DNA from: Planococcus sp. MSAK28401
Lineage (GTDB): Bacteria; Bacillota; Bacilli; Bacillales_A; Planococcaceae
Direction of reading: 5' to 3'
DNA: 64,000 bases
NCBI RefSeq assembly: GCF_018283455.1
Contig: NZ_JAAMTH010000001.1
Span: 2,027,501 to 2,091,500, forward strand
Part shown: one piece after another, positions 34,035-45,499 of the stretch
Layout of the letters: each line of letters begins with the position of its first letter
Position numbering within the stretch: the stretch's first letter is position 1
The notes under the pieces: generated by a model
What the model saw: the letters and a program-made list of their open reading frames with translations, nothing else
What the model was told of the DNA's origin: nothing
The model's database searches: none
Made by a program: the position numbers and the translations under genes

Positions 34035-34388
34035 TTACTCTTCTGTTGGATCTTTGATATCCCGCAGCAATGATTCAATCCGATTGCCGTATGCGACAGA
34101 CGAATCGATTTCAAACGCCAATTCAGGAGTCTTGCGCAAACGGATCCGCTGCCCGATTTCCGAGCGGATGAATCCTTTGGACTTGGCAAGGCCGAGCAAA
34201 GTCTGCTCTTTCTCTTTATCGTCGCCCAATACGCTGATATAGACTGTTGCTTGCTGAAGGTCGCCCGTCACTTCGACATCCGTCACTGTGACAAAGCCGA
34301 TGCGTGGATCTTTCAATTTTCTGCCGATAATTTCGCCGAGCTCTTTTTTCATCTGCTCAGCTACACGATTCGAGCGCATTGATGACAT
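34035..34388 (-). CDS. rbfA: 30S ribosome-binding factor A
   Basis: 117 residues, equal to B. subtilis RbfA. KH-like protein that binds the pre-30S particle and helps 16S rRNA maturation and cold growth. Conserved [14 protein letters not shown] and [18 protein letters not shown] segments are present. It ends beside a terminator. Confidence 0.98.
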
Positions 34389-34406
34389 TTCGAATCCACT
34401 CCGTTC

Positions 34407-34685
34407 TTACAAATATTCTTTCTTTATTTCCATGCATTCCCACGACGGGTTGCTTTCTAGAAAGCGCAGCACATGTGCCATTTCACGCTCAGCTGCTTCT
34501 TTCGAAGAAGAGACCGTGACAAACGCAAGGCGCGTGCGCTGCCAAACTTCCTGATGCTCGACTTCCGCCGCCGACACATTGAACTTTTGTTTTGTGCGGG
34601 TCATCATGCTTTTGACGACTGCACGTTTATCTTTCAATGAATGCGCGGTAGGGATGAAAAATTCGCATTCCATCGAAAGGATCAT
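34407..34685 (-). CDS. ylxP: YlxP, DUF503 protein
   Basis: 92 residues, equal to B. subtilis YlxP. Small conserved protein of the infB operon, implicated in ribosome biology in some species but of uncertain biochemical function. It contains [14 protein letters not shown] and [12 protein letters not shown]. The ATG at 34685 overlaps the infB stop as ATGA, so coupling is expected; the longer in-frame reading lies inside infB and is rejected. Confidence 0.93.
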
Positions 34686-36976
34686 TTTCGTTCGATTTCT
34701 TCCATGATGTACGCTTCGATGATGTCGCCTTCTTTGACATCGTTGAAGTTTTTGATTGTCACACCACATTCGTAGCCTTTGGCAACTTCTTTCGCATCAT
34801 CCTTAAAGCGTTTCAAGGTATCGATTTCACCTTCAAAGACGACAATGCCGTCACGGATGACTCTCACGCCGCTATCGCGCGTGATCTTGCCTTCCGTTAC
34901 ATAGCTTCCGGCAATCGTTCCGACTTTGGACACTTTGAATGTGCTGCGGATTTCCGCTTGGCCGATGATTTTCTCTTCGAACTCTGGGTCCAAGAGGCCT
35001 TTCATCGCTGCTTCGATTTCTTCGATCACTTTGTAGATGATGCGGTGCAAGCGAATATCGACGCCTTCTGCATCCGCTGCGCGCTTGGCGTTGACATCCG
35101 GGCGTACGTTAAAGCCGATGATGATGGCATTAGAAGCTGCCGCTAGGGATACATCGGACTCTGTGATCGCTCCAGCACCCGTGTGGATGACTTTTACGTT
35201 GACGCCTTCTACATCGATTTTCAAGAGTGAAGCAGCCATGGCTTCGACTGTCCCTTGAACGTCTGCTTTAACGATCAAGTTCAATTCTTTCATTTCGCCT
35301 TGCTTCAATTGATCGAACAAGTTATCAAGTGTAACGCGGTTCTTTTCAGAACGCATTTCCTGCAAAGCAGTAGCCGAACGCGCTTCACCGATTTGGCGGG
35401 CTGTTTTCTCGTCTTCAAAGACGACAAAACGGTCGCCGGCTTGCGGCACGTCGCTAAGTCCAGTGATTTCAACTGGTGTCGAAGGCCCGGCTGTTTTCAC
35501 GCGGCGGCCAAGGTCGTTGACCATCGCACGGACGCGTCCGAACGTATTGCCGACAACGATTGGGTCGCCGACATGCAAAGTGCCATCTTGCACGAGCAAT
35601 GTCGCGACAGATCCACGGCCTTTGTCAAGTTCTGCTTCGATGACCGTACCGATTGCGCGGCGGCCAGGGTTCGCTTTTAGTTCTCCAACTTCAGAAACAA
35701 GCAGGATCATTTCAAGCAATGTATCGATACCTTCGCCGTTCAAAGCGGAAAGCGGAACGAAAATCGTCTCGCCTCCCCATGCTTCGGGTACCAAGCCATG
35801 CTCAGTCAATTCCTGCATGACGCGGTCCGGATTCGCGGAAGGTTTGTCCATTTTATTGACTGCGATGATGATCGGAACTTCTGCAGCTTTGGCATGGTTG
35901 ATCGCTTCCACTGTCTGTGGCATTACGCCATCATCAGCTGCAACGACAATAATCGCAATATCCGTTACTTTTGCACCGCGTGCGCGCATCGTCGTGAACG
36001 CTGCGTGGCCCGGTGTATCAAGGAACGTGATTTTTTTGCCATCTTCTTCGACCTGGTAAGCGCCGATATGCTGTGTGATTCCGCCTGCTTCTCCAGCAGT
36101 GACTTTCGTATGGCGGATTGAATCCAGCAATGTCGTTTTCCCGTGGTCAACGTGGCCCATGATCGTAACGACAGATGGGCGTTCTTCTTTTTTAGCTTCT
36201 TCTTCAGGCTCGAAATAGACTTCCAGATCGGTTTTGTCGACCAAGATCTCTTCTTCTACTTCTACATCGTATTCTGCACAGACGAGTTCAATGGCATCTT
36301 TATCCAACTCTTGGTTGATCGTTGCCATTACGCCGAGCATGAACAATTTTTTGATGATTTCTGAAGGCTCGCGCCCTAGTTTTTTCGCCAAATCGCCTAC
36401 AGTCAAAGATTCACTGAACGTGATTTTTGACGGCAATTCTTTTTCTCTTTTCGGCATTGGCGGCATCGGGTTTACCGGACGCTGCTGTTTGCCTTTACGG
36501 TTGCGGTTTTGCCCGCCGCGTCCCGGCCCATTCGAACGGCCGCGCTGTCCTGGCCCTGGAGCCGGTTTTGCAGCTTTTGGCGTAAAGTTGGAACCGCGGC
36601 CTGCTTGAGCATTCGCTGCTGCGCCTTGCTGAGACGATTGTGAACGGTTTTGTCCACCCTGTGTGCGGTTTTGGCCGCCCTGTCCACCTGTACGGTTCTG
36701 GCCTTGTCCGCCTTGAGGACGGTTTTGCCCGCCTTGGCTGCCTTGTCCGCTTTGTCCACGGCGCTGGTTTTGACCTTGCGGACGGGATTGTGAACCTTGA
36801 GCACGGTTTCCTTGTGCAGGTTTTTTATAAATGCCGTCCAATTTCGTCACAGCGTTATCTTCTAAAGTAGCCATATGATTATTGACCTTGATATTCATTT
36901 TTGACAATTCGTCGATGATGTCTTTGCTCGGTTTATTTACTTTTTTTGCGTATTCATGTACTCGAATTTTGGTCAT
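34682..36976 (-). CDS. infB: Translation initiation factor IF-2
   Basis: 764 residues. GTPase that delivers fMet-tRNA to the 30S subunit. N-terminal IF2_N domain ([15 protein letters not shown], then [12 protein letters not shown]), a low-complexity Gln/Gly/Asn/Arg-rich stretch at about 50-175 with repeated GGQNR-like units, a second IF2_N domain, and the G domain with [12 protein letters not shown] near 268, DTPGH and NKMD. C-terminal domains II-IV follow. It is the largest gene of the rimP-nusA-infB operon. The low-complexity region is longer and more repetitive than I expect for B. subtilis, which is an impression only. Confidence 0.98.
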
Positions 36977-36990
36977 CTGCTCACCCCCGG

Positions 36991-37299
36991 TTATTTTTCG
37001 TCAAACAAGCTCGTCATTTTCTTGGCAAAACCGTTATCGGTAATCGCTAGAACGACGCGTGCTTCTTTTCCTATCGCATGCCCAATTTCATAGCGGCTGG
37101 CGCCTATGCGCACTGGGACGTTATAGGAATTACATTTATCGTGCAGTTTTTTTCTCGTGTTTTCAGACGCATCTTCAGCCACAATGACTAATTTCGCGTT
37201 GCCGCGGCGCACTTCGCTGATTACCAGTTCTTCACCGGTTACCAGTTTGCGTGCACGCGTGGCAAGTCCTAAAAACTGCAGGATTTTTTCTTTATTCAT
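36991..37299 (-). CDS. ylxQ: YlxQ, L7Ae-family K-turn RNA-binding protein
   Basis: 102 residues. L7Ae/L30e/Gadd45 fold, with [28 protein letters not shown] and [15 protein letters not shown]. In B. subtilis YlxQ binds kink-turn RNA; its physiological target is not settled. It overlaps ylxR by 4 bases and precedes infB by 14 bases. Confidence 0.93.
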
Positions 37300-37577
37300 G
37301 ATTTCAGCTGCTCTCTGCGTACGGCATGGACGAGCTCTTCATAGATTTCGCCTGGAACTTTCACTTCAAGCTGCTTGTCCAAAACCTTCTTTTTGCGTGC
37401 CATTTCGATGGCATCTTCCGATTTGGAAACATAAGCGCCTCTTCCTGACTTTTTGCCTGTCAGGTCGACAAATACTTCTCCTTCTTTGGAGCGCACCACG
37501 CGGATCATGTCCTTTTTCGGAAGCATTTCACCAGTCGCGACGCATTTTCTCAACGGAATCTTCTTTTGCATAGCCAA
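37296..37577 (-). CDS. rnpM: YlxR/RnpM, RNase P modulator
   Basis: 93 residues. YlxR family; the B. subtilis protein was shown to bind and modulate the RNase P RNA. The motif IPLRKCVATGEM and the conserved GRGAYVS are present. The start is TTG at 37577, with AAGGTGA about 6 bases upstream and N-terminal length equal to the B. subtilis protein; an ATG two codons in is too far from the ribosome site. It sits between nusA and ylxQ. Confidence 0.93.
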   Translation of the reverse strand: MAMQKKIPLRKCVATGEMLPKKDMIRVVRSKEGEVFVDLTGKKSGRGAYVSKSEDAIEMARKKKVLDKQLEVKVPGEIYEELVHAVRREQLKS

Positions 37578-37596: not shown

Positions 37597-38724
37597 TTAT
37601 TCTTCTTCGTCGTAAAAATCAAAGCCATCCGCATCTTCATCTGCGCTTGTTTCGGCAGAAGCTGACTCTGCAGACGGATAAATTCCTAGTTCACGGGCAT
37701 CCGTTTCACTCTTGATATCGATTTTCCAGCCTGTTAATTTCGCAGCCAAACGAGCGTTTTGCCCGCGCTTGCCGATTGCAAGAGACAATTGGTAATCCGG
37801 TACGACAACTGTCGTGGATTTATCGTCTTCACTCACTTGCACATCCAAAACTTTGGATGGGCTAAGGGCGTTCGCTACGAATACGACCGGGTCTTCTGAC
37901 CATTCCACGATATCGATTTTCTCGCCGCCCAGTTCGTTGACGATGGTTTGCACTCGGCCGCCTCGTGATCCGACGCATGAACCGACTGGATCCACTTCTT
38001 CGTCGTTTGCGTGGACGGAGATTTTCGAACGGTCTCCCGCTTCACGCGCAATCGATTTGATCTCGACAATGCCGTCATAAATTTCCGGCACTTCGTTCTC
38101 AAACAAACGGCGCAACAGCCCTGGATGTGTACGTGAAACGAACACTTGCGGGCCGCGTGTGGTACGTTCGACTTTAGTGATATAGACTTTGATGCGGTCA
38201 TGCGGCTGGTAGCTTTCGTTCGGCATTTGTTCCGTCTGCGGCAATACCGCTTCGACTTTGCCTAAACCGACATACAGGTTGCGGGCGTCCATGCGTTCCA
38301 CGATACCGTTGACGATATCATCCGCGCGGTCTACATACTCTTCAAAGATCAAGCCACGCTCTGCTTCACGCACGCGCTGCGTAACGACTTGTTTCGCCGT
38401 TTGGGCAGCGATGCGGCCGAAGTTGCGCGGTGTGACTTCCTCTTCCACAATATCGCCGATTTCATAAACCGGGTTGAGTGCATGCGCATCCTCTAATGAG
38501 ATTTGCAGACGGTCATCCTCGACTTCCTCGACAACATCTTTGCGGGAGTAGACAAGCATCGTCCCGGTATCAAGGTTCAAATCGACGCGGACGTTCTGTG
38601 CTTGGTTAAAATTGCGCTTATAGGCTGTGACAAGCGCTGCTTCGATCGCTTCGATCAGCACGTCACGTGATATACCTTTTTGTTTCTCTAACACTTCTAA
38701 AGCATCCAATAGCTCACTGCTCAT
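37597..38724 (-). CDS. nusA: Transcription termination/antitermination factor NusA
   Basis: 375 residues. Binds RNA polymerase and promotes pausing and intrinsic termination. N-terminal domain ([21 protein letters not shown]), S1 domain, then two KH domains including [15 protein letters not shown] and [19 protein letters not shown], and a short acidic C-terminal tail. The ATG at 38724 has AGGAG 8 bases upstream; GTG at 38733 is less likely. The weak hairpin in the operon leader may be its own control point. Confidence 0.98.
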
Positions 38725-38749
38725 GTTTTTCACTCCTAAATTCTTCTAT

Positions 38750-39229
38750 TCAGCTTGCAGAAAAATCGATCGCCAGACGAATCAGGGCAATTTTATTTCT
38801 CGGGATGCTGATGGTTTTTCTACGAGTTTTGATTTTGACCTCAATCTCTACTTGTTCTTCATCATACGACTTCAAGTAACCTTCGAATTCTTTGGCATCT
38901 TCAATCGGTTCGTACGTTTTGATGTAGATGAAGTTTTCCAAAGCTTTTTCGAAATCCTTTTCCTTCTTCAATGGGCGCTCTGCTCCTGGTGAAGAGACTT
39001 CGAGGAAATAGTTCTGCTCGATCGGGTCGGTCGCATCCAACTCTTCACTTAAGCGTTCGCTGACGATTGCGCATTGATCGATGTCGATCGGCTCCTGTGG
39101 ATTGTCCACATAAACGCGCAAGAACCAGTTCTTGCCTTCTTTCACAAACTCGACATCGACTAGTTCAAGTTCCAGCTCATCGACGATTGGTTGTGCCATT
39201 GCTTCAATTTGTTCTGTAATTTTGCTCAT
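38750..39229 (-). CDS. rimP: Ribosome maturation factor RimP
   Basis: 159 residues. Needed for 30S maturation. The segments AMAQPIVDELELELVDVEF and YFLEVSSPGAERPLKKEKDF are diagnostic. The start at 39229 (MSKITEQIE) has AGGAGG upstream; a longer in-frame version is ruled out by the hairpin and ribosome site. It is the first gene of the rimP-nusA-ylxR-ylxQ-infB-ylxP-rbfA operon. Confidence 0.97.
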   Translation of the reverse strand: MSKITEQIEAMAQPIVDELELELVDVEFVKEGKNWFLRVYVDNPQEPIDIDQCAIVSERLSEELDATDPIEQNYFLEVSSPGAERPLKKEKDFEKALENFIYIKTYEPIEDAKEFEGYLKSYDEEQVEIEVKIKTRRKTISIPRNKIALIRLAIDFSAS

Positions 39230-39261
39230 AAAATGCCTCCTGCCAATAATATGCCATAACA

Positions 39262-39290
39262 AACAGAAAAGAGCGGGAGAACCCACTCTT
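39262..39290 (-). promoter_or_regulatory. hairpin in the rimP-nusA leader, polC terminator or NusA-dependent attenuator
   Basis: AAGAGTGGG pairs with CCCGCTCTT (one G-T pair) across a 4-base loop, followed on the minus strand by TTTTCTGTTTG, a short interrupted T-tract. It lies between the rimP promoter and the rimP start, so it is in the operon leader as well as downstream of polC. Weak T-tracts are the type NusA helps to terminate. Confidence 0.65.
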
Positions 39291-39322
39291 CTGCGACAGA
39301 GCTATCAGTAAATGTTATTACA

Positions 39323-39351
39323 ATAATACCATGCTTGGCGGTGCGGCGCAA
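39323..39351 (-). promoter_or_regulatory. rimP-nusA-infB operon promoter
   Basis: Minus-strand TTGCGC (39346-39351), 17-base spacer, TATTAT (39323-39328). The -35 begins a few bases after the polC stop. The leader to rimP is about 85 bases. Confidence 0.65.
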
Positions 39352-39355
39352 CTGA

Positions 39356-42300
39356 CTAGAACAAGGATAGCTGATTGGCATCAGGCATCCCTTCTAGGCA
39401 GCCATGATCATCCATGTACTCGATGATTGTTTTTGAAACGCGGCCGCGCTGCTGCAAATCTTCCTTCGACAGGAATTCGCCTTCCGCTCTCGCAGCAACG
39501 ATTGACTTCGCAGCATTCGTGCCGAGCCCTGGAATGGCATTGAACGGCGGGATCAATGTATTGCCTTCAATCAGGAATTGATCCGCGGACGATTTATACA
39601 AATCGACTTTCTGGAATGAATAGCCGCGTTCGACCATCTCAAGCGCCAGTTCCATGACCGTCAGTAAGTTCTTTTCTTTCGTCGAAGCTTCGAGTCCTCT
39701 TGAGTTGATTTCGTCCACTTTGGCACGGATTGACTGGGATCCTTTTGCCATGGCGTTGACATCGAAATCTTCTGCCCGCACCGTGAAGTACGCGGCGTAG
39801 TAAAGGACCGGGAAATGAACTTTGAAATAAGCGATGCGGACCGCCATCAAAACGTAAGCGGCGGCGTGCGCTTTCGGGAACATGTATTTGATCTTTTTGC
39901 ATGACTCGATATACCAGTTCGGGACGGCTTTCTCTTTCATTGCCGCTTCCATCTCCGGCGTCAAGCCTTTCCCTTTCCGTACCGATTCCATAATCTTAAA
40001 CGCCAAAGATGATTCAAGCCCTTGATAGATCAAGTAGACCATGATGTCATCCCGGCAGCCGATGACGTCGGACAGTTGGCAAGTGCCGTTGTGGATCAAT
40101 TCTTGGGCATTGCCGAGCCAAACATCCGTGCCATGCGACAATCCGGAAATTTGCACGAGTTCAGAGAACGTTGTCGGTTTCGTATCTTCAAGCATTTGGC
40201 GAACAAAGCGCGTCCCGAACTCCGGGATGCCGAGCGTTCCGGTTTTACAGCCGATCTGCTCTTTCGTGACGCCGAGCGATTCGGGACCTGCGAAAATCTT
40301 CATCACTTCCGGGTCATCTGTTGGGATCGTCTTCGGATCGATACCGGACAGATCCTGCAGCATACGGATCACTGTCGGGTCATCATGCCCGAGAATATCG
40401 AGCTTCAATAAATTATCGTGGATCGAGTGGAAGTCGAAATGAGTCGTCTTCCATTCGGAATCTTGCGCATCCGCCGGAAATTGGATTGGCGAGAAATCGT
40501 AGATGTCCATATAATCGGGCACAACGATGATGCCGCCTGGGTGCTGGCCTGTGCTGCGCTTGACGCCAGAACAGCCTTGCACCAAACGGTCGATCTCCGC
40601 GCCGCGCATCGTCATATCGCGGTCATTGGCATAGCCGCGCACATACCCGTAGGCTGTTTTTTCTGCTACCGTCCCGATCGTACCGGCCCGGAAGACATTG
40701 TCTTCACCGAACAGCACTTTCGTGTAATTATGTGCTTGCGGCTGATATTCGCCACTGAAGTTCAAATCGATATCGGGAACTTTGTCTCCTTTAAACCCAA
40801 GGAAGGTTTCAAAGGGGATATCCTGTCCATCTTTCTTATACGGAATCCCGCAATCCGGGCAATCCTTATCTTTCAAGTCAAAACCGGAACCGACAGAGCC
40901 ATCATCGAAGAACTCGGCTTTCTTGCATTTGCGGCAAACATAATGAGGCGGCAAGGGGTTGACTTCCGTGATTTCTGTCAGCGTCGCAACAAGCGACGAT
41001 CCGACAGAACCCCTGGAACCAACGAGATAGCCGTCATCAAGCGATTTTTTCACCAGTTTATGCGAAATCAAATAGATAACTGCAAAACCATGGCCGATGA
41101 TCGACTTCAATTCCTTCTCGATGCGCGCCTCGACGATTTCCGGCAAGTCATCTCCATAAATCGAGCGGGCCATCGTGTAGCTGAGCTCACGGACTTCTTC
41201 ATCTGCCCCTTCAATTTTAGGTGTGTACAATTCGTCTTTGATCGGTTTGACGACATCAATCATATCAGCGATCTTCAAGGAATTGTCGACCACAATTTCA
41301 CGCGCCGTCTCTTCTCCGAGAAAATCGAAGGCGTCGAGCATTTCATTTGTCGTCCGGAAATGCACTTTCGGCAATGTCGAACGGTTCAACGGATTCGCGC
41401 CGCCTTGTGAACCAATGAGCACTTGGCGGAAGATGGCGTCCGTTTCATCAAGATAATGGACATTGCCTGTCGCGACTAGCGGCTTATCGAGCTTACGGCT
41501 CACTTTGGCCAGCTTGCGGATGATGTCTTCTAGATTCCATTCGTCGCGAATCAATTCGCGATCGATCAATGGCTGATACACTTCTTTCGGATGCACTTCC
41601 AAATAATCATAGAACTGCGCCGTGCGTTCCACTTCTTCCATCGATTTCTGCATGACCGCTTCGAACACTTCGCCTTTATCGCAGCCCGAACCGACAAGCA
41701 AGCCTTTCCGGTGGCGCTGCAACAATGAGCGAGGTATGCGCGGGACGCGGTAGAAATAATTGATATGGGAAGCTGAAACGAGCTTGAACAGGTTTTTCAA
41801 GCCTTCCTGGTCTTTTGCCAGCAAAGTGCAATGCGTCGGCCGTGAGCGCTTATAGGAATCGCCCGTCCCGACATAATCATTCAATTGATCGTGGTAGAGG
41901 ATGCCTTTGTCGTCCGCTTCTTTCAATAGATGCGTCAACAAATAAGCGGTCGCCTCTGTATCGTAGATGGCGCGGTGATGCTGTGTCAGTTCAATATTGA
42001 ACTTTTTCGCCAGCGTGTTCAAACGGTGGTTTTTCATTTCCGGGTGAAGCATGCGGGCAAGTTCTAATGTATCAATCGTGGCATGTGTTTTATCGATGCC
42101 GTATTTCTTATAGGCAACATATAGGAAGCCCATATCGAACGAAGCATTATGCGCAACCATGATATGATCGCCTGCCCATTCGTGGTATTCGCGAATAACT
42201 TCTTCGACTTCCGGTGCGTTGCGGACCATATCATCCGTGATGCCGGTCAAGTCGATCGTCGTTGCCGACAAAGGATGGTGCGGATTGGCGAAACGCTCGA

Positions 42301-43663
42301 ATTTATCGATGATATTCCCGCCTTTGATCTTGACCGCTGCCAACTCGATGATCGTGTCATAGACAGCGGATAATCCGGTCGTCTCCAAGTCAAAGACGAC
42401 AAAGGTCTCTTCTTCGAGCAAAGCATGGCGTTCTTCATAGGCAATCGGGACGCCGTCATCGACCAAATTCGCTTCCAATCCGAATATCGCCTTGATGCCG
42501 TGCTTTTGGCTCGCGGCATAAGCGTCCGGAAATGCTTGGACTCCTGCATGGTCCGTGACTGCAATCGCCGGATGGCCCCATTTCGCCGCTTGGGCGACCA
42601 ATGATTCGATAGATGATACAGCGTCCATCTGGCTCATCGGTGAATGCAAGTGCAATTCCGCGCGTTTGACTTCGGCGGTGTCTTTACGGACGGATGGATT
42701 GATTTCGACCATATCGTTCGACATCATGACAAGATCCCTGACGAATGTATCGGTTTGGATGGAGCCTCTCGCTCTCAGCCACATGCCTTTTTTCGCTTGG
42801 GCCATGAGCTCCGCGTCTTCTTTATCACGCGAGAACATTTTGACGAGGATTGAATCCGTGTAATCGGTCATCTTGACGGTCAAAAGTGAACGGCCGCTGC
42901 GCAGTTCGCGGACTTCGACATCGAAAACGAAGCCTTCGATGGTGACGCGGCGTTCTTCGTCGACAATCGAACGGATCTCGACAATCGGCTCATCCGGTTT
43001 GATGGCAGAGCCCATTTGGAAAGGCCCTGATGGCACGCCATTCTCTTTGCGCTCGGTTTCTCGTTTCTTCATGTCTGCGACAGCTCTTTTGGCCATCGCT
43101 TCTTCTTCGGCTTTACGCTCTTCCATAAAGGCAGCACGCGCTTCCTGTTGGTCTTCTGCCGATAGCTGGAAGTCGATCGAAAATGCTGGAAATCCGAATT
43201 GCTGAAAAACCTGGCTTAGTTTTTCGGTGTATTTGGATTTCAATGCCATCATTTCATGTTCATGGCAGCAGTCGACGATCAATTTATTGCCATTCCATAC
43301 AGGCGCTTGCGACAGCAGGCGCTCGCGTAGAGGCGGTGCCATATCCGCCAATTCGTCGACGACATGCCGCCAGTAGGCGGAAACTTGCTCGCCGTCAGCT
43401 TGTTGCGTGGGTGTTTCTATATGCACTTGAACGCTTGCAATCGTTGAAAACTTGGCTTGCAGCCGCTCGCGGAAAATAATAAATAATTCAAGCGGCAGCA
43501 CTTGCTTGAGTTTGACGATAAAACGCCATGCCCGGTCTTTCTTATGAACGGTCATGCGTGTGAGTTCCGCCTCTTCAAAATATGGCATATGGACATCATC
43601 GGTTAACTCCAGATGCTGCAGCAGCAATTTAAATCTCATTTTGGCGTCTTGCTCATTTATCAT
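39356..43663 (-). CDS. polC: DNA polymerase III alpha subunit PolC
   Basis: 1435 residues. The replicative, Gram-positive-type polymerase with built-in proofreading. An OB-fold precedes a split PHP domain ([10 protein letters not shown] near 336), into which the DEDDh exonuclease is inserted (FDLETTGLS near 421). A four-Cys zinc motif begins CRKC near residue 906, and the polymerase catalytic [11 protein letters not shown] lies near 962. All key residues are present. The start at 43663 ([12 protein letters not shown]) has AAGGGG 7 bases upstream. It lies after proS, as in B. subtilis. Confidence 0.99.
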
Positions 43664-43690
43664 GATTATCCCCTTCGCCATTTATTTCAG

Positions 43691-43724
43691 AAAAAGAAAG
43701 GAAAGTACGTTTGTACTTTCCTTT
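43691..43724 (-). terminator. proS terminator
   Basis: Perfect 12-bp stem AAAGGAAAGTAC with its complement, 4-base loop, tail CTTTTTC on the minus strand. It lies between proS and polC. Confidence 0.88.
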
Positions 43725-43743
43725 TATCATATCAGATTATTAT

Positions 43744-45447
43744 TCATTTCTTAAAGAATTCGCGTACCTTGTCAGACACTTCATCTTTATGCCATTCGAC
43801 TGTCTCGTTGGTTTCGCGGATTTTCACTTCCAGAATTCCTTCAGCGGCACGTTTGCCGACAGTGATGCGGAGTGGCAAGCCGATCAAATCGGCATCGGCG
43901 AATTTCACGCCGGCGCGCTCTTTGCGGTCATCGAGCAGTACTTCGAATCCTTGTGTTTTCAATTGTTCATAAATTTCTTCCCCGGTTTCGCGTTGCACGT
44001 CGTCTTTGACGTTGACCGGCACGACGTGGATTTCATACGGTGCGACCGCATTCGGCCAAGTGAACCCGGAATCGTCCTGGAATTGTTCAGCGACAGCCGC
44101 GACAATGCGTGAAACGCCGATGCCGTAGCAGCCCATGATGTAAGGCATCGCTTTGCCTTGGTCATTGAGGAAGGTCGCTTTCATCGGTTCGCTATAAGTC
44201 GTGCCGAGCTTGAAGATGTGGCCGACTTCGATTCCTTTAGCGAATTGAATCGTGCCGTTTCCGTCAGGCGATGGGTCGCCTTCTTTTACAAAACGCAGAT
44301 CTCCGTAAGCTTCTACCGTGAAATCTTCGCCAGGTGTAACATTTTTGAAATGGACACCGTCTTCATTGGCGCCTGTCACGCTGTTCACAATCGATTTGAC
44401 GGCATTGTCTGCAAATACGCGGACGTTTTCAGGCAAGTTCACTGGACCGATCGATCCGATATCACAGGACAGCAACTCGCGTATATCTTCAGGTGATGCC
44501 AAGTCGATCAGCTTAGCTCCTGAAATGTGCTTGACTTTCACATCGTTTACTTCATGGTCGCCACGTGACAACACGACGATGAGGTCGTCGTCCGCTTTGA
44601 ACACAAGCGTTTTAATGCAGTTTTCAGGCGTCGTGTCGAGGAAATCCGCCACTTGTGCAATGGTCTTCTGGTCAGGTGTCGCAACTTTCTCGATTGGGTG
44701 CGTTTGTTCATCGGATTCAGGATAATCCACATTTACTGCGGCCATTTCAATATTCGCCGCGTATGGCGAACTGTCCGAATACGCAATCGTGTCTTCCCCA
44801 ATTTCCGACAGCACCATGAATTCGTGATTGTCCTTGCCACCGATTGCCCCTGAATCCGCGATGACGGCACGGAAATTCAATCCGAGGCGGCTGAAAATAT
44901 TGCTATAGGCTTGCATCATATCGTCGTAGGTTTTATCCAGGCTTTCCGGCGTCGCATGGAAAGAATACGCATCTTTCATGAGGAATTCGCGTCCGCGCAA
45001 CAATCCAAAGCGTGGGCGCTTTTCATCACGGAACTTTGACTGGATTTGATACAAAGTCAAAGGCAACTTCTTATAGGATTTGATTTCATCGCGCAATAGG
45101 CTTGTGATGATTTCTTCATGGGTTGCACCTAATGCAAACTCACGGTCGTTGCGGTCTTTCAAACGCATTAATTCGTCGCCGTAAGAATACCAACGTCCTG
45201 TCTCTTGCCAAAGTTCAGCTTGCTGAAGCGCAGGCATGAAGACTTCGACGCTATTGATTGCTTCCATTTCCTCACGGATGATTTTCTCGACTTTGTGCAG
45301 AACACGTTTACCGAGCGGCAGGAATGAATAGATTCCGCTTGTATTTTGGCGGATGAACCCTGCCCGCAACAATAATTGATGCGATTTTACTTCCGCATCA
45401 GCTGGAGTTTCCCTTAAAGTCGGGATAAAGCTTAACGTTTGTCTCAT
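43744..45447 (-). CDS. proS: Prolyl-tRNA synthetase
   Basis: 567 residues. Class II synthetase of the bacterial type with an inserted editing domain. Motif 2 region [21 protein letters not shown] (shown here only in part: [10 protein letters not shown]) and motif 3 [13 protein letters not shown] are seen; the insertion ([18 protein letters not shown]) removes misacylated Ala-tRNA(Pro). The ATG at 45447 has GAGGTG 9 bases upstream; GTG at 45459 overlaps that ribosome site. No T-box leader fits in the 86-base gap before it. Confidence 0.98.
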
Positions 45448-45499
45448 TTCCGAATACACCTCGACTGGTTATTGTATTTGTAAATCTCTATGTAGCAGA

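Follow-up and report, generated by a model that had tools for sequence, protein, structure and literature searches.

Between polC and rimP, on the minus strand of the 64,000-nt stretch of Planococcus sp. MSAK28401 DNA that was analysed (the window), lies what is very probably the promoter of the rimP-nusA-infB operon together with a 5'-leader attenuator under NusA feedback, a reading drawn by analogy to which we assign a probability of about 0.8. Feedback by NusA is the best explanation of the arrangement by analogy with Bacillus subtilis; we infer the start site, termination itself and, from B. subtilis, the effect of NusA. The promoter, the leader terminator and its interrupted T-tract are conserved in a manner that fits control of the nusA operon.

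Genes around the leader were assigned from open reading frames and Pfam domains. The upstream gene, polC (39356..43681, minus strand; DNA_pol3_alpha, PHP, RNase_T and PolC N-terminal domains), ends at a stop codon read directly from the sequence at 39358-39356. The leader stands directly in front of rimP (38750..39229, minus strand; ATG at 39229-39227; RimP_N and RimP C-terminal domains), which is the first gene of the operon and is followed by nusA (37597..38733, minus strand; NusA_N, S1 and KH_5), the presumed feedback regulator. The remaining operon genes occupy 34035..37577 on the same strand, so that the Pfam order downstream of the leader is rimP, nusA, ylxR, an L7Ae-family gene, infB, a DUF503 gene and rbfA; beyond the Pfam labels, we take these to include ylxR/rnpM, ylxQ (the L7Ae-family gene) and ylxP (the DUF503 gene). 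Promoter, hairpin and interrupted T-tract stand alone on the minus strand between polC and the run from rimP and nusA through infB to rbfA. Elsewhere in the window, a 12-bp hairpin with a T-rich tail (43697-43724, minus strand) lies about 15 nt ahead of the polC start, between polC and an open reading frame at 43744-45459 that is proS judging by its sequence; it may be a terminator or a polC leader element.

The preliminary description had placed a TTGCGC-17-TATTAT promoter after the polC stop, and this was confirmed at 39351-39323 (minus strand), with an extended -10 that it had overlooked. The -35 element TTGCGC (39346..39351) begins 4 nt past the polC stop and is separated by a 17-nt spacer from the hexamer TATTAT (39328-39323), which forms part of the extended -10, TGG-TATTAT (39323..39331). 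A conserved segment of 34 nt (39289..39322), containing the initially transcribed region, leads from the -10 to the stem, and transcription is predicted to start within it near A39316, about 28 nt upstream of the stem. The stem-loop core GAGTGGG-TTCT-CCCGCTC (39271..39288), which carries the rimP-leader motif and was recognised from sequence, fold and relatives, sits within a full hairpin AGAAGAGTGGG-TTCT-CCCGCTCTTTT (39292-39267) that is followed by CTGTTTG; the interrupted T-tract TTTTCTGTTTG (39260..39270) was likewise read directly. The claim of a hairpin with an interrupted tract in the leader before rimP thus holds at 39288-39260, and a terminated leader would measure about 52-59 nt. Downstream of the hairpin, a Shine-Dalgarno-like AGGAGG of rimP is found at 39236..39241, and 41 nt separate the end of the stem core from the rimP ATG.

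Neither the terminator nor the promoter is far above chance in this single sequence, and their significance comes from conservation. A simple scan of the window listed the terminator and not the promoter, the -35 of which matches TTGACA at 3 of 6 positions; the promoter is credible despite this poor -35 because the extended -10 is present. Terminator-like sites in a 14-kb region numbered 22, compared with 17.7 expected (sd 4.6), and the leader fold had a z-score of -1.78, with 6 of 200 shuffles equally good.

To assess conservation among relatives, rimP loci were collected through one scan of genome contigs and the best 80 of 204 candidate loci were taken (L002-L048, by their titles Planococcaceae and allies; L049-L081, mostly other Bacillales). 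The hairpin core, the extended -10, a TTGC -35 and the interrupted tract were present in all 80 of these best loci. The alignment of the leader across Planococcaceae that had been proposed at the outset bore the description out, with hairpin core, extended -10 and TTGC kept throughout L002-L048; TTGC was also kept in all 31 Planococcus-group loci compared. In the same best 80 of 204 loci, the predicted start-to-stem distance was 25-32 nt (sd 1.4), and the stem-to-rimP distance 39-305 nt (sd 52.7). Mean pairwise identity across the 31 Planococcus-group loci was 0.967 for the stem-loop, 0.961 for the 34-nt segment leading to the stem (30 loci, after omission of one that has an extra base), 0.452 for the promoter spacer, 0.587 for the 15 nt beginning 10 nt past the stem and 0.520 for third positions of the last 60 polC codons. 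Within the genus, the region from the -10 to the stem is therefore as conserved as the hairpin; from family to family, the 5' part of the leader differs.

Two further features of these intervals were recorded. An element of about 130 nt with covarying helices follows the hairpin and precedes rimP in L012, L019, L026, L027, L029, L030 and L031; as a new leader RNA it was rejected, because it looks like a dispersed repeat: of 46 genomes of the genus Planococcus, 28 contain matches, one genome having as many as 23, and the same search gave none in the genome of the window. By eye, a second hairpin followed by T-runs was noted between the first terminator and rimP in L036, L051, L065, L071 and L080, which makes a tandem attenuator possible there.

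Conservation beyond these relatives was assessed across Bacillota, where all 121 Bacilli genomes searched yielded a rimP locus, as did 114 of 119 genomes sampled phylum-wide. We collected 100 upstream regions from 98 further families: 40 from 38 Bacilli families (f2-f39, two sampled twice) and 60 from 60 other families (drawn from f40-f110; f48 had no rimP match, and f79 and f102-f110 were left out). The stem core was found in 91 of the 100 regions by a pattern that allows loops of 3-9 nt, two of the misses (L160 and L161) being cores with longer loops. A GGG/CCC hairpin with a T-tail was present in 85 of the 100 regions, compared with 0 of 300 dinucleotide shuffles. Among the nine regions without the core, six (L086, L098, L108, L116, L147 and L179) have an altered stem that is still paired, and these offer natural material on stem sequence versus structure. 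A covariance model built on 104 leaders was searched against the 121 Bacilli genomes with stricter filters, and its best match lay just upstream of rimP on the same strand in at least 103 of 121 (a lower bound); 17 of the 121 had no model match at rimP among the matches listed.

Spacing was examined with a promoter search that kept the hexamer with the highest score between 22 and 74 nt upstream of the stem, a score of 9 being reached by 86 of the 91 core-bearing family regions (35 of 35 from Bacilli, 51 of 56 others). The start-to-stem distance was 19-37 nt (sd 3.8) in the 35 regions of other Bacilli families and 10-51 nt (sd 9.2) in the 51 regions of other classes, where this search leaves the spacing unsure. 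Promoter-to-stem spacing is narrow only in Bacilli, and stem-to-gene spacing is free.

The terminator was compared with 129 terminator-like hairpins after open reading frames in the same genome. To obtain this set, 1172 ORF ends across 464 kb were considered, some of them belonging to spurious ORFs, and at least 4 T in 8 nt were required. The GC-trimmed leader hairpin has an energy of -11.0 kcal/mol against a median of -16.1, with 31 of the 129 ordinary terminators as weak or weaker, and its first T-run is 4 against a median of 5, a run no longer than this being found in 50 of the 129. Its T content over 10 nt is 8, which is not low, as 118 of the 129 have no more. The terminator had been described as weak; this stands for the interrupted tract and the moderately weak stem, yet the tract is not T-poor. 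The interruption itself is a conserved property of rimP leaders, because the first non-T falls at or before position 5 in every one of the best 80 of 204 loci and in all 91 core-bearing family regions, that is in all 171 core-bearing leaders, compared with 50 of the 129 ordinary terminators. Across the 91 core-bearing regions, T frequencies were 0.95, 0.93 and 0.90 at positions 1-3, 0.21 and 0.27 at positions 4-5 and 0.70, 0.55, 0.77 and 0.82 at positions 6-9; ordinary terminators carry T at positions 4-5 with frequencies of 0.87 and 0.82. None of the 47 loci L002-L048 has T at position 5 or at position 7.

Because the leader has its own promoter, a terminator ahead of the gene and, in Planococcaceae, no antiterminator or Shine-Dalgarno-pairing signal above shuffles, control of termination by a factor is suggested. 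Under NusA feedback, RNA polymerase starting about 28 nt before the stem would meet an intrinsic terminator with an interrupted U-tract ahead of rimP. Plentiful free NusA would join the early elongation complex, prolong the pause and aid formation of the hairpin, raising the share of transcripts that stop; under NusA shortage, polymerase would read through and yield more NusA, together with RimP, IF2 and RbfA. Transcripts reading through from polC would meet the same hairpin. That this hairpin also ends polC transcripts, as first proposed, is plausible because no other minus-strand terminator-like site was listed from the polC stop to rimP.

Conservation of the stem letters exceeds what a terminator needs, and generic stimulation by NusA does not explain it. 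The stem could instead be recognised in a sequence-specific way, by the RNA-binding domains of NusA or by another protein, so as to switch termination, as suggested by Naville and Gautheret (PMC2965389); judged from sequence, we consider this possible, at well under even odds, and it can be compatible with NusA feedback. The core GAGTGGG/CCC(A/G)CTC is present in 171 of 180 loci (80 of them the best 80 of 204), and in these 171, at stem pairs left free by the search, pair 1 is G-C in 164, pair 2 A-T in 170 and pair 4 T-A in 108 or T-G in 63; pairs 3, 5, 6 and 7 are set by the search pattern and are uninformative on conservation. Against a requirement for these letters, the six altered stems described above keep their pairing. 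Covariance-model matches away from rimP (20 among the matches listed) bear on recognition in both directions: of the 12 inspected, 10 are situated where an upstream ORF ends and 8 carry different stem letters, which favours specific recognition, whereas four terminators (L217, L218, L220 and L224) fit the core pattern.

The conserved start-site region may carry a signal of its own in part of the Bacilli. A box of the form TGG-NN-ATACT (or A-N-ACT), 5-6 nt after the -10, was found in 17 of 35 Bacilli regions versus 0 of 51 other-class regions, where 100 shuffled sets gave a mean of 0.16 and at most 2 for the Bacilli, and the start-site box TGGNNATACT is accordingly common to about half of the Bacilli regions. 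The pattern TATGNTATANT-N5..8-GGNNATACT gave 39 matches in the 121 Bacilli genomes and 0 with a reversed control; rimP follows downstream in 32 cases and a tig-like ORF in 5, and the other 2 are elsewhere. A relaxed start-site pattern is less specific, with 26 matches (19 rimP, 5 tig, 2 elsewhere) versus 5 for its reversed control. The name tig was given from ORF sequence, and the places in G086, G099, G109, G126 and G161 agree with Trigger_N matches. A related box, TATAAT-N4-TGGTTATAAT or similar (regions L184-L188, L214 and L249-L268), was present in 13 of 20 Bacilli tig upstream regions (L249-L268) versus 4 of 600 shuffles, by a pattern set after viewing those same regions. Inspection of the tig promoters L184-L188 by eye for a leader terminator revealed none, and pattern searches found neither the rimP start-site box nor the tig box in the genome of the window. 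No published account of the box was found in titles and abstracts, within a limited literature made up mostly of papers outside subscription.

In Escherichia coli, according to the available text of PMC7876045, -10-like hexamers are linked to sigma-dependent promoter-proximal pauses, and the sites of sigma and NusA on RNA polymerase overlap. Many Bacilli rimP leaders share with these sigma70-dependent pauses a -10-like hexamer soon after the promoter -10: 23 of 35 Bacilli regions have it at offsets 14-16, as do 11 of 12 hand-picked Bacillaceae. Planococcaceae, the family of the window, differ in lacking the hexamer at that position (1 of 14 hand-picked loci, against 6 of 51 other-class regions), and 7 of the same 14 carry a -10-like site at offset 11 or 12. 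By position, a sigma pause is favoured in Bacilli but not in the family of the window. We regard it as improbable that the leader gauges the exchange of sigma for NusA: the conserved start-site region (TGGNNATACT in many Bacilli, -10-like) would briefly hold sigma or polymerase near the promoter, and the nearby terminator, at 25-32 nt in the best 80 of 204 loci or 19-37 nt in the 35 Bacilli regions, would read the replacement by NusA. Against a true -10 element, the second hexamer position is G in several of the tig boxes. If the gauge were true, the related tig box, with no leader terminator seen, would mean that the box is an independent module.

Narrow spacing and a shared stem core also bear on a simpler account, in which the hairpin is a mere 3' terminator insulating polC, the rimP promoter lies upstream of it by chance and read-through is constitutive and unregulated. 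An insulator would be in keeping with a hairpin strength inside the ordinary range (31 of 129 as weak or weaker) and with the scan of the minus strand, which lists a single terminator-like site from polC to rimP. It needs, in contrast, neither the contrast in spacing seen in the best 80 of 204 loci (sd 1.4 from start to stem versus 52.7 from stem to rimP), although spacing is looser outside Bacilli (10-51 nt), nor a core common to 91 of 100 regions from 98 families, and we consider it quite unlikely. Slightly less likely still, judging from sequence, is that the terminated leader (about 52-59 nt) acts as a small RNA or NusA decoy, which would explain the conserved 5' part: the 34 nt before the stem match the stem in conservation within the genus, and a short leader RNA form has been reported in Streptococcus agalactiae (accessible text of PMC4448216), but the 5' part of the leader varies between families.

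Least likely, and very improbable, is classical attenuation or translational control through alternative pairing, in which the initially transcribed GCTCT would form an antiterminator with the 5' arm AGAGT or would pair with the Shine-Dalgarno and start region. Planococcus and several Bacillaceae do show GCTCT/ACTCT complementarity, and the minimum-energy fold of the leader in the window joins GCUCUGUC to GGCA/GAGC around the Shine-Dalgarno and start codon. Complementarity nevertheless barely departs from dinucleotide shuffles for the 5' arm (Bacilli 9.03 versus 9.09; other classes 9.21 versus 9.36; Planococcaceae 9.57 versus 9.62; selected Bacillaceae 10.0 versus 9.28) or for the Shine-Dalgarno and start region (Planococcaceae 12.29 versus 12.38; selected Bacillaceae 12.08 versus 10.76). 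The representative groups (12 Bacillaceae, 14 Planococcaceae) were hand-picked, and the selected Bacillaceae show a slight excess over shuffles in both tests alike. The antiterminator was rejected on the absence of any excess apart from this slight one, and the Shine-Dalgarno/start pairing on the absence of an excess in Planococcaceae.

NusA feedback was then set against known systems. Rfam 15 gave no family at gathering score within the window, and matches at the leader were at chance level only; a gammaproteobacterial rimP family exists in Rfam. In its accessible text, the study of Naville and Gautheret (2010; PMC2965389) describes the rimP-leader as the most ubiquitous transcription attenuator, with a GGG...CCC stem, in the majority of species studied, including Firmicutes and Gammaproteobacteria; its authors looked for the motif in other terminators without finding it, proposed NusA as effector and likewise considered RimP. 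The preliminary description had taken this to be control conserved outside Bacillus as something new, a view overtaken by PMC2965389 for Firmicutes and Gammaproteobacteria and by PMC4448216 for S. agalactiae. As far as that text goes, the window shares with the rimP-leader a terminator with GGG...CCC stem and T-stretch before rimP, the rimP-nusA-infB operon, a terminator-to-gene distance (41 nt) within the 4-130 nt given and no visible antiterminator or larger structured element; nothing of substance differs, and the less conserved c/g beside GGG and CCC is absent from the window.

B. subtilis NusA is autoregulated through NusA-stimulated termination in its leader (review PMC12288461, citing Mondal 2016, in the text available), and the window shares with it an intrinsic terminator in the leader of a NusA-encoding operon, with its own promoter upstream as a sequence feature. 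Distal U-tract interruptions are said, in the accessible part of PMC8060035, to mark NusA-dependent terminators in B. subtilis, and interrupted tracts are reported there for NusG-dependent terminators too. The weak T-tract earlier called a hallmark of NusA control is borne out as a conserved interruption; the suboptimal hairpin (here only moderately weak) with a distal interruption is found in the window and fits NusG-dependent terminators as well. For S. agalactiae gbs0413-gbs0418, leader termination is reported and NusA feedback proposed (PMC4448216, accessible text); a leader terminator near the start and before rimP-nusA is common to both, and termination is reported there 31 nt after the start, compared with the 52-59 nt predicted here.

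The leader in the window is a further member of the known rimP-leader attenuator kind, not a new one. As a means of controlling a core transcription factor, the element is real and very widespread, and it was soundly called from raw sequence. Additional to what is in print, it seems, are the T-tract break by position 5, the conserved region before the stem, the narrow spacing in Bacilli and the start-site box with its relative at tig. These measurements make it testable why the stem letters persist throughout Bacillota although structure alone ought to suffice, and whether the distance from the promoter lets the leader measure free NusA.
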